Of a stretch of 33,571 nt of DNA, positions 6,955 through 29,711 are shown piece by piece (position 1 is the first letter of the stretch; each line of letters opens with the position of its first letter). The stretch spans positions 1-33,571 of the forward strand of contig JAUIFC010000025.1 of assembly GCA_030429455.1 (NCBI GenBank), written 5' to 3'. This stretch comes from Bacteroidia bacterium (GTDB lineage: Bacteria; Bacteroidota; Bacteroidia; Flavobacteriales; Flavobacteriaceae). Made by a program: the position numbers and the translations under genes. The notes beneath the pieces are model-generated. The model was not told the origin of the DNA. It did not search any database and saw only the letters and a list, made by a program, of their open reading frames with translations.

Positions 6955-9762
6955 ATGAAAACAATGAAGACTAATTTATTTTTATTAATGGTGCTGTCAT
7001 TATTTATTATTTCGTGTGATAGCGATGACGATAATAATGGAGGCGGTACTACTGATCCTGGTTTTTCTGGCACAATAACAGAGGACCTTACATTAGACCC
7101 TAACACAACTTACACGCTTTCTGGAGAAGTACTAGTTGCAGATGGCGTTACGTTAACAATTCCTGCTGGAACAGAAATTGTTTCCGATGCTGGAACTGGA
7201 AACTACTTAGCTGTTTTACAAGGAGGTACTATCGACATCCAAGGAACAGCAAGCAGTCCTGTTGTAATGAGATCAAATGGCAACGCTGGTGCTTGGGGTG
7301 GTTTATTACTTTGCGGTAATGCACCTACAACAGCTGGAACAAATGTTACTGCAGAAGTTGGTGGTTTAGTTTATGGTGGAACAGACGAAACTGACAGTTC
7401 TGGAAACATCGACTACTTGATCATTAGAGATGCTGGTGCACAAATCAATCAAGATTCTCAGTACAACGGTTTATCATTATATGCTGTTGGTTCTGGAACA
7501 ACTATCGACAATGTAGCGATAATCAATGGTGCTGATGATGGTGTTGAATTCTTTGGTGGTACTGTTTCTGCATCTAACATGTATTTGGAGAACAACGAAG
7601 ACGACGCTGTTGACTGGACGGAAGGTTGGAATGGAACTTTATCCGATACTTATGTTGTCAATACTATCCAAGGTTTTTCAACTGCAATCGAAGCTGATGG
7701 TAACGCAAGTAACCCAACTATAGAAAACTTTACAGCTATTTCTTCAAACGGAGGATTAGCTATTCAAATGAAAGCTGCTTCTACAGCAACAATCAATGGA
7801 TTTACCGCAACTGGTTTTACAACTTTATTCGAATTTGCTGGTACTTCTACAGCTGCAGAATTAGTAATTGACGGTGCTGCTGCCGATACTGCGGACGATG
7901 CTGTTTACGATACGTCTTCAACAAACTCAAGTGACTTTGCATGGGCAACATCTACTGATACAGGTAACCAATTGCCTTCAAACATCACTTCGGATACAAC
8001 TTTAGATGCTTCTATAGAATATTCTGTTGTTGGTCCAGTATTAGTAAACTCTGGTGCGACTTTAACAATTCCTGCTGGAACTGTAATCGTTTCTGCTTCA
8101 GGAACTGCAAATTATTTAGCTGTTTTACAAGGTGGTGCAATCGACATCCAAGGAACGATAGACAATCCAGTAGAAATGCGTTCTGCTGATGGTAACCCAT
8201 GGGGTGGATTATTAATTTGTGGTAACGCAACAACAACGGCAGGTACAAATGTTACTGCAGAAGTTGGTGGTTTAGTGTATGGTGGTACAAATGACACTGA
8301 GTCTTCTGGTAACATCGATTACTTAATCTTAAGAAATACAGGTGCTCAAATCAATGCTGATTCTCAGTTTAACGGTCTTTCTCTTTACGCTGTTGGTTCT
8401 GGAACTACTATTGATAATGTGGCTGTTATCGCAGGTGCTGACGACGGTATCGAGTTCTTCGGAGGAACAGTAAGTGTTTCAAATTTCTATGCTGAAAACA
8501 TTGAAGACGATGCAATCGACTGGACTGAAGGTTGGAATGGTACAATGGATACAGCTTACCTTGTGAATACAATCCAAGGATTCTCTACAGCTATCGAAGC
8601 TGATGGTACTGCAAGTAACCCAACTTTAAATAATTTAACAGCGATTTCTTCTACTGGAGGTTTAGCTATTCAAATGAAAGCGGCTTCTACAGCTACAATC
8701 AATGGTTTTTCAGCAACTGGTTTCTCTACTTTATTTGAATTTGCTGGTACGTCCACTGCGGCAGAATTAGTCATTGATGGTGCGGCTGCAGATACTGCAG
8801 ACGATGCTGTTTATCAATCATCACCAACAAACTCGAGTAACTTTGCATGGGCGACTGGCGATTTAGAATCAGATCAATTACCTTCAAACATTACATCCGA
8901 CTTAACACTAGATGCTAGTGTATTATATACAATCAATGGTCCAGTACTTGTTAACTCTGGTGTTACTTTAACAATACCAGCTGGTACTGAAATCGTTTCT
9001 GCTTCAGGTACTGCAAACTATCTTGCTGTATTACAAGGTGGTTCTATAGATATCCAAGGAGATATGGCAAACCCAGTTGAAATGCGTTCTGTTGACGGTC
9101 AGCCTTGGGGTGGTTTGTTAATTTGTGGAAACTCTACAACTACTGCAGGTGTAAACGTTGTTGCCGAAGTTGGAGGTCTAGTTTACGGTGGTACAACGCC
9201 TGGCGAATCTTCTGGTAATATTGACTACTTGATTTTAAGAAATACTGGTGCTCAAATCAACGCTGATTCTCAGTTTAACGGTCTTTCGCTTTATGCTGTT
9301 GGTTCTGGAACTACTATCGATAATGTTGCTGTTATTGATGGTGCTGACGATGGTATCGAATTCTTTGGTGGAACTGTAAGTGTTACAAACTACTATGCAG
9401 AAAATATTGAAGACGATTCAGTAGATTGGACTGAAGGTTGGAATGGTACTTTAGCAAATTCTTTTGTTAAGCAAACGATCAACGGTTTCTCTACATCTAT
9501 CGAAGCAGATGGTACTGCAAGTAACCCAACATTAACAAACTTCACAGCGATTTCTTCAACTGGTGGTTTAGCAATTCAAATGAAAGCTGCTTCTACAGCA
9601 ACAATCAACGGATTGACGTTATCAGGTTATTCTCTTCAGTTCGAATTTGCTGGTTCTTCAACTGCTGCAGAATTGGTAATAGACGGTGCTGCTGCAAACG
9701 AAGGAACAACTTACAATACTTCAACAACTGTTGAAACTGACTTCCCTTGGATAAATAACTAA
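6955..9762 (+). CDS. Triplicated beta-helix-like surface lipoprotein
   Basis: A predicted lipoprotein of 935 residues. The signal sequence ends in FIIS with lipidated Cys21, followed by DSDDDNN. An acidic run at this place resembles the lipoprotein export signal described in Flavobacterium, so the protein is probably exposed on the cell surface. The remainder is three copies of one domain starting near residues 40, 343 and 645 (unit 302-303 residues, the last shorter). Each copy repeats GVTLTIPAGT, NYLAVLQGG, WGGLL(L/I)CGN, AEVGGLVYGGT, GADDG(V/I)EFFGGTVS, the DWTEGWNGT region and AIQMKAASTATINGF. The short hydrophobic strands with Gly/Asn turns suggest a right-handed beta-helix. It is the last gene of the unit with the TonB-dependent receptor. 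Its ligand is unknown. Confidence 0.85.
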   Translation: MKTMKTNLFLLMVLSLFIISCDSDDDNNGGGTTDPGFSGTITEDLTLDPNTTYTLSGEVLVADGVTLTIPAGTEIVSDAGTGNYLAVLQGGTIDIQGTASSPVVMRSNGNAGAWGGLLLCGNAPTTAGTNVTAEVGGLVYGGTDETDSSGNIDYLIIRDAGAQINQDSQYNGLSLYAVGSGTTIDNVAIINGADDGVEFFGGTVSASNMYLENNEDDAVDWTEGWNGTLSDTYVVNTIQGFSTAIEADGNASNPTIENFTAISSNGGLAIQMKAASTATINGFTATGFTTLFEFAGTSTAAELVIDGAAADTADDAVYDTSSTNSSDFAWATSTDTGNQLPSNITSDTTLDASIEYSVVGPVLVNSGATLTIPAGTVIVSASGTANYLAVLQGGAIDIQGTIDNPVEMRSADGNPWGGLLICGNATTTAGTNVTAEVGGLVYGGTNDTESSGNIDYLILRNTGAQINADSQFNGLSLYAVGSGTTIDNVAVIAGADDGIEFFGGTVSVSNFYAENIEDDAIDWTEGWNGTMDTAYLVNTIQGFSTAIEADGTASNPTLNNLTAISSTGGLAIQMKAASTATINGFSATGFSTLFEFAGTSTAAELVIDGAAADTADDAVYQSSPTNSSNFAWATGDLESDQLPSNITSDLTLDASVLYTINGPVLVNSGVTLTIPAGTEIVSASGTANYLAVLQGGSIDIQGDMANPVEMRSVDGQPWGGLLICGNSTTTAGVNVVAEVGGLVYGGTTPGESSGNIDYLILRNTGAQINADSQFNGLSLYAVGSGTTIDNVAVIDGADDGIEFFGGTVSVTNYYAENIEDDSVDWTEGWNGTLANSFVKQTINGFSTSIEADGTASNPTLTNFTAISSTGGLAIQMKAASTATINGLTLSGYSLQFEFAGSSTAAELVIDGAAANEGTTYNTSTTVETDFPWINN
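7072..9762 (+). repeat. Three tandem ~906-bp coding repeats
   Basis: Three in-frame copies begin at about 7072, 7981 and 8887. Copies 2 and 3 are nearly identical at DNA level over long stretches (for example around 8341-8420 and 9241-9320), while copy 1 differs more. This suggests a later duplication, or gene conversion, between copies 2 and 3. The last copy is shorter and ends in a different C-terminal tail. Confidence 0.85.
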
Positions 9763-9930: not shown

Positions 9931-10260
9931 ATGATAAAAGTGAGCGAACAGGCAAGAACTAAACTCATTAGCCTTATGACAGAAGAAGGCTATGATGCCT
10001 TTAAAGACTATGTAAGAGTTGGTGTAAAAAGTGGTGGTTGTTCAGGATTATCCTATGAACTTAAATTTGATAAAGACCAGCATGACAACGATAAAGTATT
10101 TGAAGATAACAACATCAAAATAGCAGTAAATAAGAGCAGTTTTCTTTACCTAGCAGGAACAACTTTGGAGTATTCAGGCGGACTTAATGGAAAAGGCTTT
10201 GTCTTTCAAAACCCAAATGCACAACGAACTTGTGGATGTGGCGAATCTTTTAGCTTGTAG
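9931..10260 (+). CDS. sufA: A-type Fe-S carrier SufA/IscA
   Basis: A small cytoplasmic scaffold/carrier of the HesB/IscA family, 109 residues, which takes Fe-S clusters from SufBCD to target proteins. The three cluster ligands are present as Cys37 (SGGCSGLSY) and Cys101/Cys103 (RTCGCGESF). The ATG at 9931 gives the canonical start MIKVSEQA; an ATG at 9924 is out of frame. First gene of the suf operon, behind a promoter with an inverted repeat. Its stop codon is also the first unit of the heptamer-periodic spacer leading to sufB. Confidence 0.95.
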   Translation: MIKVSEQARTKLISLMTEEGYDAFKDYVRVGVKSGGCSGLSYELKFDKDQHDNDKVFEDNNIKIAVNKSSFLYLAGTTLEYSGGLNGKGFVFQNPNAQRTCGCGESFSL

Positions 10261-10354
10261 CTATTAGCACATAGCGATTAGCCATTAAGTTGAATTTGCT
10301 AAGGGCTAAGAACTAAAAGCTAACTACTTATTACTAACGACTAACAACTAAAAC
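10258..10354 (+). repeat. Degenerate heptamer array filling the sufA-sufB spacer
   Basis: The whole spacer can be cut into 7-bp units, starting with the sufA stop: TAGCTAT, TAGCACA, TAGCGAT, TAGCCAT, TAAGTTG, AATTTGC, TAAGGGC, TAAGAAC, TAAAAGC, TAACTAC, TTATTAC, TAACGAC, TAACAAC, then TAAAAC before the sufB ATG. Twelve of fourteen steps begin with TAG or TAA. Because 7 is not a multiple of 3, these stops fall in all three frames. The period is directly visible; any function is unknown. Confidence 0.8.
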
Positions 10355-12242: not shown

Positions 12243-12995
12243 ATGTTAAAGATAAATAACCTACATGCAGAAGTTGAAGGCAATAAAATTTTAAATGGCC
12301 TTAATCTCGAGATTAAACCTGGTGAAGTGCATGCAATAATGGGACCAAATGGTTCTGGTAAAAGTACCTTAGCTTCAGTTGTAGCAGGTAACGAAGAATA
12401 CGAAGTTACAGAGGGTGAAATAATTTTCGACAAGTCGAATATATTAGAACTTTCTGCAGACGAGCGTGCGCAGAGAGGTATATTTTTATCTTTTCAATAC
12501 CCTGTTGAAATTCCTGGGGTAACTGTAACAAACTTTATTCGAACGGCAATCAATCAAATCCGAAAGGCAAAAGGCTTAAAAGATATGCCAGCAAATGAAA
12601 TGCTAAAGAAGATTCGTGAAAAAGCAGCCATGTTAAGCATGGATCGAAAATTTTTGTCCCGTTCCCTTAACGAAGGTTTTTCTGGAGGAGAAAAAAAGAG
12701 AAACGAAATTTTTCAAATGGCAATGTTGGAACCTAAACTAGCTATTCTAGACGAAACAGATTCTGGACTAGATATCGATGCCTTAAGAATTGTTGCCGAT
12801 GGTGTGAATAAGCTAAGAACCAAAGACAATGCTACACTTGTGATTACCCATTACCAAAGGCTACTGGATTATATCGTCCCAGATGTCGTTCATGTATTAG
12901 TCGATGGAAGAATCATCAAAACTGGCGATAAAGAACTAGCTAAAGAATTGGAAGTTAAAGGTTACGACTGGCTAAGAGAAGAGGCTGTCGTTTAA
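12243..12995 (+). CDS. sufC: Fe-S cluster assembly ATPase SufC
   Basis: The ABC-type ATPase of the SufBC2D complex, cytoplasmic, 250 residues. Walker A is GPNGSGKST (34-42), the signature is GFSGGEKKR (145-153), and Walker B with its catalytic Glu is [12 protein letters not shown] (Glu171). The switch His is in ITHYQRLL (His203). ATG 12243 gives the canonical start [13 protein letters not shown]; a longer reading from 12138 overlaps the preceding lipoprotein gene and is rejected. In most relatives sufD follows directly; here a four-helix-bundle gene with flanking heptamer arrays intervenes. Confidence 0.97.
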
Positions 12996-13005
12996 GTTTG
13001 ATGGG

Positions 13006-13033
13006 TTTCAAGTTTCAAGTTTTTGTTTTCAAG
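13006..13033 (-). repeat. Heptamer array left of the four-helix-bundle gene
   Basis: Plus-strand units TTTCAAG (13006-13012), TTTCAAG (13013-13019), a shorter TTTTTG, then TTTTCAAG. Read on the minus strand the unit is AACTTGA, one base different from the AACCTGA word of the array on the other side of the gene. It begins ten bases after the sufC stop. Confidence 0.65.
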
Positions 13034-13035
13034 TT

Positions 13036-13426
13036 GTGGCAACTATAGCTTTTTGAAGATTTAGAAATATGGAAAGAAGCTAGAAGACTATTTGGAATAA
13101 TAAATCGGATAAGCCTAGAAACTAATTTAAAAACGGATTATAAATTAAAAGAACAAATAAGAGGATCAGCTGGCTCGGTCATGGATAATATAGCTGAAGG
13201 ATTTGAAAGAGATGGTAATATGGAGTTTAAGCAGTTTTTGTCAATTGCTAAAGGTTCAGCAGGCGAAACTAGATCACAATTACATAGAATATTTGATTGT
13301 AACTACAATTCTCTAAAGGAATTTAACGTATTAGCAAAAGACTATGAAAGTCTAAATAGAAGGATTTCATCTTTAATTATTTATTTGAATAAAAAAGACT
13401 ACAAAGGAAATAAATTCAAGTCATAA
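13036..13426 (+). pseudogene. Four-helix-bundle (S23/IVP-type) protein gene with a 5' frameshift
   Basis: From 13049 the frame is open to the stop at 13426 and reads LFEDLEIWKEARRLFGII and onward through SAGSVMDNIAEGFERDG and FLSIAKGSAGETRSQ. This is the signature of the four-helix-bundle family encoded in 23S rRNA intervening sequences and related to Avd. No ATG, GTG or TTG is in frame before ATG 13181, which would leave out about 48 conserved residues. A GTG at 13036 starts VATIAF in another frame and meets TGA at 13054. Removing one T from the five-T run at 13050-13054 joins the two and gives 129 residues with the usual N-terminus. So the gene is frameshifted, depends on slippage, or contains a read error. 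An 81-residue product from 13181 is the fallback. Confidence 0.65.
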
Positions 13427-13432
13427 CATTAC

Positions 13433-13519
13433 AAACCTAAACAGAAACCCAAAACCAGAAACCTGAAACCAGAAACCTGAAACCAGAAACCAGAAACCTG
13501 AAATCAGAAACTAGAAACA
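13433..13519 (+). repeat. AAACCWG heptamer array before sufD
   Basis: A tandem array with a 7-bp period. The regular core at 13452-13514 is nine units: AAACCAG, AAACCTG, AAACCAG, AAACCTG, AAACCAG, AAACCAG, AAACCTG, AAATCAG, AAACTAG, with degenerate units before and after. It fills the gap between the four-helix-bundle stop and the sufD ATG at 13526. TGA or TAG occurs at several unit junctions. Confidence 0.85.
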
Positions 13520-13525
13520 AAGAAT

Positions 13526-14839
13526 ATGGATTTAAAAGAAAAATTGTTGTCATCGTATCTTGCTTTTGAAGAAACACTAGATTTGGATAATGATATTCAC
13601 GATATAAGAAATAATGCCATTAAGTATTTTGAAGACACAGGTTTTCCTAACAAAAAATTGGAAGCTTGGAAGTACACTTCACTTAATTCAATTTTAAAAG
13701 AAGATTACAGCATTTTTCCAAAACAAAGCAGCGCAATAGACTATAAAGAGGTCAAACAGTATTTTGTTTACGACATAGACTCTTATCAGATTGTGTTTAT
13801 AGATGGTATTTACTCTTCTCATTTGTCGAAAACAACGCATGATAAATTTGATGCTTGTTTGATGTCGTCTGCATTAAATAGTTCAAAATACAATAAAGTT
13901 ATACAAAAGTATTTTAACAAAATCGCACCAAAAGACAGTTTAACAGCTTTGAACACAGCATTTTCTAAAGAAGGTGCTTACATCTACATTCCAAAAAATG
14001 TGGTTGCAGAAAAGCCAATTCAGATTTTAAATTTTTCAACTGGAAACGAACATGCCTTAATGCTTCAGCCAAGAAATTTAATTGTTGTTGAAGATGGTGC
14101 GCAAGTTCAGATCATCGAAAGACACCAAAGTCTGACGGATAATGCCGTGTTTACAAATTCGGTTACAGAAATTTATGCCGGTAAAAACGCACAAGCTGAT
14201 TATTACAAAATTCAAAGTGATAAAATTTCGTCTTCGTTAATAGACAATACATTTATTAGTCAGGAAAGAGATTCGGAAGTTTCTGTACATACCTTTTCTT
14301 TTGGAGGAAAAATAACACGAAACAATTTGAATTTTTATCAAAATGGTTCAGGGATAAATTCTATTTTAAAAGGGGTTACGATTATAGAAGGCAAACAACA
14401 CGTTGACCACAATACATTAGTACACCACAGACAACCACATTGTGAAAGTCATCAAGATTACAAAGGTATTTTTGCCGATAAAGCAACTGGAGTTTTCAAC
14501 GGAAAAGTATTTGTCGACAAAATTGCTCAGAAAACCGATGCTTACCAAAGTAACAACAACATTGTTATCGACGATGGTGCTACTATAAATACGAAGCCAC
14601 AATTAGAAATATTTGCGGACGATGTAAAATGTAGTCATGGTTGTACCATTGGTCAATTGGATGAAGAAGCCCTGTTTTATATGCAATCCAGAGGGATTCC
14701 AAAAAAAGAAGCAAGAGCGTTGTTGATGTATGCTTTTGCAAATAATGTATTGACAAGTGTAAAAATTCCTGAGCTAAAAACCAGAATTACCAACGAAATA
14801 GCAGATAAAATAGGCGTTCAATTAGGATTTGACTTATAG
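13526..14839 (+). CDS. sufD: Fe-S cluster assembly protein SufD
   Basis: A paralogue of SufB and third subunit of the SufBC2D scaffold, cytoplasmic, 437 residues. It has the typical N-terminal region (FPNKKLEAWKYTSLNSIL) and a beta-helix core. In the conserved DVKCSHGCTIGQ segment Cys369 and His371 correspond to E. coli SufD Cys358/His360, which act at the SufB-SufD interface. HVDHNTLVHHRQPHCESHQ is also characteristic. The ATG lies right after the AAACCWG array, with no evident Shine-Dalgarno sequence. sufS follows after 18 bp. Confidence 0.97.
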   Translation: MDLKEKLLSSYLAFEETLDLDNDIHDIRNNAIKYFEDTGFPNKKLEAWKYTSLNSILKEDYSIFPKQSSAIDYKEVKQYFVYDIDSYQIVFIDGIYSSHLSKTTHDKFDACLMSSALNSSKYNKVIQKYFNKIAPKDSLTALNTAFSKEGAYIYIPKNVVAEKPIQILNFSTGNEHALMLQPRNLIVVEDGAQVQIIERHQSLTDNAVFTNSVTEIYAGKNAQADYYKIQSDKISSSLIDNTFISQERDSEVSVHTFSFGGKITRNNLNFYQNGSGINSILKGVTIIEGKQHVDHNTLVHHRQPHCESHQDYKGIFADKATGVFNGKVFVDKIAQKTDAYQSNNNIVIDDGATINTKPQLEIFADDVKCSHGCTIGQLDEEALFYMQSRGIPKKEARALLMYAFANNVLTSVKIPELKTRITNEIADKIGVQLGFDL

Positions 14840-29134: not shown

Positions 29135-29479
29135 TTAATATTTTAATATTTTATTTAAGGTCGTCTTGATATTCTGAAATTCAACATCATTAATGAGACC
29201 AATTTTCTTTTTAAATCTTACATTAGATAATGACCGAATATGAAAAACCATAATTTCAGATTCTTTTTTAAGGCCATTCGTTTCGTTTGGTTGGAGTATC
29301 GGATGACCTTGGTAGTTTTTTATTTTAGAAGTGATTGGGCATACAATAATGACGTTAAAGTATTCATTCATTGTGTTTCCGCTTATCACAACAGCTGGTC
29401 TGTTTCCTGCTTGTTCACTCCCAACAATAGGATCGAAATAGACTTGCCAGATTTCCTTTTGCCTAATCTTCACTTTCAA
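29135..29479 (-). CDS. MazF/PemK-family mRNA interferase toxin
   Basis: The toxin of a type II toxin-antitoxin pair, 114 residues. The PemK-like fold shows IWQVYFDPIVGSEQAGNRPA, VVISGNTMN and IVCPITSKI. The Arg of NRPAVV and the Thr of CPITSK are at the positions used by MazF to cleave RNA. No ATG fits: the start is TTG 29479 or GTG 29473, inside the end of the antitoxin gene (17 or 11 bp overlap), which implies coupled translation. The stop lies 3 bp before the paaZ start, so read-through transcription into paaZ is likely. Confidence 0.9.
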   Translation of the reverse strand: MKVKIRQKEIWQVYFDPIVGSEQAGNRPAVVISGNTMNEYFNVIIVCPITSKIKNYQGHPILQPNETNGLKKESEIMVFHIRSLSNVRFKKKIGLINDVEFQNIKTTLNKILKY

Positions 29480-29711
29480 ACTTTAAAAGCTGATTGTAAT
29501 AATCTGCCATGCCTTCTTCTGCCATAGCCATCATGTCTTTATCTTTTGACGCTCTTTTAAACGATCGTCTATATGCTGCTTTATCCAACTGTTCCAAATA
29601 AATTTCTACTGCCTTTTCAATAATTTTATTTTTCGGCATTTTTAAATCTTTAGAAGCTTTTGCAAGTTCTTTAAGGAGATGATCTGGAAGTGTTGATGTA
29701 TAAGTTGCCAT
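29463..29711 (-). CDS. Ribbon-helix-helix antitoxin (MazE/CopG-like)
   Basis: The antitoxin partner, 82 residues. The N-terminal TYTSTLPDHLLKELAKASKD and KNKIIEKAVEIYLEQLDKA form the strand-helix-helix of RHH DNA-binding dimers, which repress their own operon. The acidic C-terminal tail (MAMAEEGMADYYNQLLKFES) is the probable toxin-binding part. It precedes and overlaps the toxin gene in the usual antitoxin-first order, and has its own promoter element upstream. Confidence 0.87.
   Translation of the reverse strand: MATYTSTLPDHLLKELAKASKDLKMPKNKIIEKAVEIYLEQLDKAAYRRSFKRASKDKDMMAMAEEGMADYYNQLLKFESED

Follow-up and report, generated by a model that had tools for sequence, protein, structure and literature searches.

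What occupies the 530 bp between sufC and sufD in the window, by which we mean the whole stretch of 33,571 nucleotides analysed here? The names sufC and sufD, like accB, accC, carA and carB below, are presumed identities, read from the sequence. Our answer is that the feature is probably one decaying copy of a compact mobile element with an Avd-fold protein that recognises the arrays of 7-bp words on either side of its gene. Judging from sequence comparison, we give this reading a probability of roughly 0.6.

The upstream neighbour sufC (12243-12995, plus strand) and the downstream neighbour sufD (13526-14839, plus strand) were placed from the list of open reading frames and by reading the sequence. 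The left heptamer array (13003-13033, minus strand) starts 7 bp past the sufC stop codon, consists of AACTTGA/GTTTCAA units and reads GGGTTTCAAGTTTCAAGTTTTTGTTTTCAAG. It was delimited from the sequence, from a TRF row of period 7 at 13005-13022 and from its inverted match to the right array. The right array (13433-13518, plus strand) is built of AAACCTG/AAACCAG units and was called by TRF with period 7 at 13442-13518 (11.0 copies, score 105) and with period 21 at 13433-13518 (score 116). The left arm aligns with the reverse complement of the right arm at a score of 22 over 45 columns, with many mismatches; for comparison, left and right arms paired across different loci have a mean score of 9.9 and reach at least 16 in 4% of cases. 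Between the arrays, a profile search found a plus-strand frame (13049-13426), probably frameshifted at its 5′ end, that encodes a four-helix-bundle protein of the IVP/S23 type. It matches PF05635 with 102.5 bits (cut-off 33.8) and TIGR02436 with 92.8 bits (cut-off 24). Both claims of the sequence-only reading about this layout hold: heptamer arrays in opposite directions bracket the gene, and the gene belongs to the family found in 23S rRNA intervening sequences. PF05635 is the only Pfam profile above its cut-off in the encoded protein, with no match to an HUH Y1 transposase or any other transposase, and the unit contains no further gene beside this frame.

We compared the sufC-sufD region in 30 loci, window included, out of 80 genomes with sufC; the gap was taken as the distance between the last aligned position of sufC and sufD. 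The gene is absent from 25 of the 30 loci, 23 of which have a gap of 25-55 bp and two of which have gaps of 85 and 95 bp. Because the gene is missing from these 25 loci, the ~0.5 kb in the window is, by this sequence comparison, an insertion. That sufC and sufD normally adjoin, as had been supposed, agrees with the 23 short gaps, and the gene is far from being held at this place by all relatives. The 85-bp gap, in genome G039, resembles by eye a bare inverted heptamer pair. The other five loci belong to the five genomes closest by sufC (~90% identity): two carry the PF05635 gene (the window and G024), two carry remnants with heptamers left by an internal deletion (G020 and G006), and one has a 246-bp spacer without similarity to the insert (G017). 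The inserts of the window and G024 are 73% identical over 427 columns, and their words differ: the window has GTTTCAA/AAACCTG, G024 has GGTTTAAAG/CTTTAAACC, and by eye both ends have changed alike.

The operon contains a second array pair. A gene-less convergent heptamer pair, TTAGCnn ... nnGCTAA (10247-10351, from TRF and the array scan), sits between a gene at 9931-10260, whose last codons it overlaps, and sufB (10355). It is a solo unit built in the same way from a different word, and a second insertion in the same operon as the window gene.

The gene copy in the window appears to have lost its start. No ATG, GTG or TTG occurs in frame 13049-13426 before 13181, and the likely old start, GTG at 13036, lies in a different frame that stops at 13054-13056. 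At the old start, the G024 copy has ATGGCAACTGTAGATCGTTTTGAAGAT and the window has GTGGCAACTATAGCTTTTTGAAGAT, which is two bases shorter. Given this shortening and the lack of an in-frame start, the window copy is probably a pseudogene at an early stage, unless the assembly contains an error at this point.

The flanks of other family members were scored in several sets. Over 124 loci, of which 94 belong to the genus and 30 to the family, the mean score of the left arm against the inverted right arm is 15.9 (median 16.0) vs 9.9 for swapped partners, the maximum of 2000 permutations being 10.9, and the true partner is the best in its row for 35 of the 124. Beside the gene, autocorrelation peaks at lags 7 and 14 (0.56-0.58, vs 0.37-0.40 at control places). 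In direct orientation, the same loci give a median of 11.5 and a mean of 17.6, which is higher than the inverted mean because some loci carry long direct copies, or arrays of both orientations in each flank. A further set held 80 named loci spread over many phyla, with Acidobacteria, Planctomycetota, Chloroflexi, Nitrospirae and Clostridia among the groups in the record titles; for 76 of them the values are 19.3 inverted vs 9.4 swapped, with 46 of the 76 above the 95th percentile of swapped pairs. For 29 phylum-wide hold-out loci, the values are 15.9 vs 10.2, with 12 of the 29 above that percentile. The partial match L031 was excluded from the arm statistics, L195 and the 29 hold-out loci stand outside the 215-locus set used below, and L016 and L206 are one Psychroflexus locus counted in each set. 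At L197-L199, the automatic arm score is low (10-14) because the called start falls within the array, and the arrays there were read by eye.

At L014, L107, L108, L120 and L121, both gene flanks carry long direct copies (up to ~230 nt) of one stretch; these copies contain heptamer arrays, often in both orientations.

A significant array is present in at least one 130-nt flank in 131 of 215 loci and in both flanks in 70. Among these 70, the inverted match is better than the direct one in 52, and the direct match is at least equal in 18. The suggestion that flanks of other members are enriched in inverted heptamers is clearly upheld, with exceptions: 84 of the 215 loci have no significant array within 130 nt. 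From these sequences, the common feature is period 7 with inversion, and the word varies by locus. Word and protein similarity are related only above ~60% protein identity, where there are few pairs; for pairs with at least 50% identity, the mean word similarity is 0.8233, the highest value under permutation being 0.8219. A tight coupling between word and protein across the family was rejected (Spearman 0.04 over 8006 pairs without shared neighbours).

These flanks bear on the simplest alternative, namely that the arrays are ordinary microsatellites produced by slippage, or regulatory sites, with the gene merely nearby. Most genomes with plentiful long repeats have heptanucleotides as their most abundant class (PMC4679880, in a passage citing Mrazek), and arrays exist without the gene and are rare in some gene-rich genomes. 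Against this stand the inversion with locus-specific matching of left and right arms, and the distribution of the arrays, which are found in 45.7% of 407 gene flanks vs 14.9% of the 262 intergenic stretches taken elsewhere and 0.5% of shuffled sequences. With the gene-less pairs described below, we regard this explanation as highly improbable.

A family shared with rRNA insertions raises another alternative: an rRNA-type intervening sequence (IVS) outside rRNA, in which the transcript arms pair, RNase III cuts, and a neutral insertion has been spread by an unrelated route. The protein family is the same as that of the 23S rRNA IVS ORF (S23p/IVP, in Leptospira and Coxiella), where a small gene prone to decay likewise lies between terminal inverted repeats, and the arms of the window unit pair in the predicted RNA fold (MFE). 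For Coxiella, the part of PMC4990558 on the IVS describes terminal inverted repeats that form a 28-bp stem excised by RNase III. The window fold, however, is not unusually stable (z -0.60; 31 of 100 dinucleotide shuffles are as good), and an Rfam search of the window matched no family, rRNA included. The hairpin model further predicts that variable positions match between the arms. Each heptamer has ~4.4 conserved and ~2.6 variable positions (28 loci), and in a register test the variable positions were unmatched, with 1 of 28 loci at p ≤ 0.05 and a combined p of 0.995. For this test 28 of 70 loci qualified, the window locus standing outside the set, and its power is limited because most arms hold 4-6 units.

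As the variable positions do not pair between arms, the sequences favour arrays that resemble protein-binding iterons more than an rRNA-IVS hairpin. The natural ligand would then be double-stranded DNA, since through inversion the two ends become identical sites and no pairing of the arms is required. The window unit also differs from a 23S rRNA IVS in its place (a protein operon, not a 23S rRNA gene), in its ends (heptamer arrays, not one long near-perfect stem) and in having gene-less relatives dispersed through some genomes. We therefore judge the IVS explanation unlikely. Since two features that define an IVS proved absent when tested, and we know of no kind of element with ends of this type, we treat the gene with its arrays as a kind apart; it might alternatively be filed as an IVS variant.

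Does the unit move? Psychroflexus L012 and Brumimicrobium L219 are 79% identical over 437 columns that comprise the gene and ~76 nt of array; their neighbours are different, and nothing is shared beyond gene and array at E 1e-5. L067 and L150 share the gene and part of the right array, and L035 and L068 share the gene only, in both cases with differing neighbours. Insertion, unit boundaries, inversion, period 7, word correspondence and purifying selection (below) are established by sequence comparison, and the same comparisons make movement, and with it the mobile-element reading, probable. The proposal of a poorly described, non-transposase mobile unit gains support from the empty sites and from the inverted-heptamer flanks elsewhere.

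The family is widespread. The source genome has six family genes, and at least one is found in 26 of 27 genomes of the genus, 192 of 249 of the family and 232 of 296 of the phylum, the source genome counted in each. It is absent from all 14 control genomes, and a phage search with one query gave no match in 50,697 records. Family matches were taken mostly as the best-scoring ones, so that degenerate copies are under-represented. We know of no function for PF05635 proteins. Over 69 usable of 95 pairs, the median dN/dS is 0.085, a value that places the protein, as judged from its sequences, under strong purifying selection. Hence the gene is probably part of the mechanism. This modifies the sequence-only reading, which had a small cargo gene in a non-transposase unit: the unit is supported, and passive cargo is not, given this dN/dS.

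The protein is ~120 aa long, and its AlphaFold model has a pLDDT of 91. The first structure matches are 2gsc and 2rld (E 8e-6 to 5e-4), followed by Avd (4dwl) and a complex of a diversity-generating retroelement (DGR, 8ub7) at E 0.05-0.4 and TM ~0.7. The four-helix-bundle fold is thus common to our protein and Avd, which are 11-13% identical in the part that aligns. No catalytic motif was found in the protein. A rival reading is that an enzyme encoded elsewhere, for instance an HUH/RAYT-type transposase or a reverse transcriptase, moves the arrays, with the four-helix protein as an accessory or array regulator. The small size of the protein agrees with such a role, as do the many arrays per gene copy in Xanthomonadales and the fold, since Avd is a reverse transcriptase accessory (PMC10053308, where the resemblance of the family to Avd is likewise remarked). 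The shared unit, in the three pairs compared, nevertheless consists of gene and array only and includes no partner gene. We find the involvement of another enzyme doubtful, and prefer a mobile element whose own four-helix-bundle protein likely recognises the arrays.

Since PDB entry 2gsc is the Xanthomonas member of the family, inverted GGGAATC arrays were expected around that member; this expectation was not recorded ahead of its test. In X. arboricola, X. dyei and Luteimonas salinisoli, the gene does lie by eye between inverted GGGAATC arrays, at the accB-accC site. At the same site, both ends carry GGGATTC in Dokdonella and GTGATTC in Luteimonas cucumeris. X. dyei has a second gene copy, with the word GGGGACC, between carA and carB; in two Luteimonas genomes carA adjoins carB without a gene copy, and two of the five loci (L341 and L344) are uninformative, with other sequence upstream of carB. 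A target-site duplication was sought at sufC-sufD and carA-carB, where the relatives are too diverged to define one. Five genomes, which belong to several genera, have the accB-accC copy in common, so that some of the copies must be old.

We counted word doublets genome-wide in five Xanthomonadales genomes selected for carrying the gene (G586-G590, in that order); both strands were counted and doublets may overlap, so long arrays count several times. GGGAATC gave 188, 86, 140, 19 and 88 doublets, GTGATTC 0, 1, 24, 0 and 57, and GGGATTC 15, 9, 0, 170 and 2; backwards-pattern controls gave 0 in all five genomes. The resident accB-accC word is the commonest of the three tested words in four of the five genomes. 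In G590, GGGAATC (88) exceeds the resident GTGATTC (57), and the second family gene there has another word. As the family genes number 1, 2, 1, 1 and 2, most arrays are gene-less. Opposite-strand neighbouring arrays at most 400 bp apart are convergent in 24 of 24 unique pairs, which include two orthologous sets (L334/L346). Slippage microsatellites would be expected to give convergent and divergent solo pairs equally, and none of the 24 is divergent. The gene-less pairs also have an inner box, GnAAAnGC, just inside the arrays (left 19/24, right 17/24, background 18%), a pattern that was picked on the same 24 sequences on which it was scored; the accB-accC units show it too, by eye, at their left end.

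The Xanthomonas heptamers have been described before: in its account of GGGAATC, PMC4692102 gives 70 convergent pairs in Xcc and 75 in Xac, mostly intergenic and near the upstream gene, and generally without a link to mobile elements. It is very likely, from the description given there, that these arrays are gene-less units. Many gene-less units with the same inverted ends were found in Xanthomonadales only and are not general in the Bacteroidota samples.

Two further Xanthomonadales loci were read. In Luteimonas cucumeris (L306, 1501-1577), a single array joins GGGAATC units to GTGATTC units, as though one word had taken the place of another. In Dokdonella G589 (L304, 1350-1521), a stretch between two convergent arrays resembles the last part of an unrelated coding sequence, so that other sequence may be carried by array pairs.

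Outside Xanthomonadales, low-complexity lag-7 segments number one per 200 kb in each of three gene-free genomes. Gene-bearing genomes have 1 (G188), 1 (G182) and 4 (G297) segments, and G019 has 19 in 400 kb. Solo arrays are rare in the samples of two genomes with 9 and 13 gene copies, each with one A/T-rich segment in 200 kb like the gene-free genomes. Array density was rejected as a marker of gene presence, G188 and G182 being equal to the gene-free genomes. Thirteen of the 16 intergenic arrays listed for G019 fall in one 20-kb stretch. In L284 of the same genome (12159-19133), heptamer arrays of several words fill the spaces between housekeeping-type genes, and some of these words match by eye those beside the family gene L028, also in G019.

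Thirty-eight plasmid records have a family match, of which 12 were read (11 cyanobacterial and one from Gemmatimonadota). By eye, seven of the 11 cyanobacterial loci are clearly inverted, e.g., GGGAACA ... TGTTCCC; L189 is plainly direct, and L188, L193 and L196 are short or weak. Arrays are also present at the single Gemmatimonadota locus. Family genes lie inside CRISPR-Cas operons on three of the cyanobacterial plasmids (L189, L190 and L194), between cas6 and cas4 twice and between cas10 and cmr3 (type III-B) once. Conjugation clusters on these plasmids are also split by family genes; the cas and conjugation gene names are those of the record annotation. STRR are the heptamer repeats of cyanobacteria, likewise arrays of heptamers, and family genes on plasmids adjoin heptamers such as GGGAACA.

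In the mechanism we propose, the outer ends of the element would be inverted arrays of a 7-bp word that points inward at both ends, and the interior would be the gene for the ~120-aa Avd-fold four-helix-bundle protein. In the examples read, operons carry these elements in narrow spaces between genes, next to the upstream gene or slightly inside its end: at sufC-sufD, accB-accC and carA-carB, and at cas10-cmr3 and cas6-cas4 on plasmids of cyanobacteria. The protein would most likely assemble on the arrays as double-stranded DNA binding sites and would recruit or perform a step of breakage and copying. RAYT transposases presumably act on REPINs, and our protein may similarly act in trans on gene-less array pairs. 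The likeness to REPIN/RAYT systems, the subject of PMC3116915 and PMC2817692, lies in one gene-bearing unit and many miniature units with inverted ends that share its end sequence; the differences are the lack of an HUH Y1 transposase match in our protein and ends made of tandem heptamers, not REP palindromes.

Heptamer arrays have been reported from several groups: GGGAATC in Xanthomonas and GGGGA(T/C)T in Nostoc (PMC4692102), and TAACTGA in Beggiatoaceae, Cyanobacteria and Bacteroidetes (PMC4679880). The TAACTGA heptamers have the same period as ours, are intergenic and are patchy across phyla with the family gene, but they are described as mostly direct repeats, and the passages on them in PMC4679880 hold that their mechanism of transfer is not evident. 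In the sections that deal with them, both papers leave the arrays unexplained, and no link between gene and heptamers was found in print in the open-licence literature. More tentatively, and with rather less than even confidence, we propose a minimal, phylum-crossing class of mobile element in which an Avd-fold protein would be the sole mobility factor, would read lineage-specific arrays as ends, and would be the source of the heptamer families in cyanobacteria, xanthomonads and others; a change of word would affect both ends and the scattered gene-less copies in concert. Linking PF05635 to heptamer arrays makes both testable, through the match of protein and word and through the movement of an array pair. 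If true, it would add a mobile element that lacks every known type of transposase and would explain how suf, acc, car and CRISPR-Cas operons are split without an insertion sequence.

Elsewhere in the window, two small adjoining minus-strand ORFs (29135-29711) resemble by eye a MazF/PemK-type toxin and its antitoxin, and a predicted lipoprotein of 935 aa (6955-9762) contains, also by eye, three near-alike repeats of ~290 aa.
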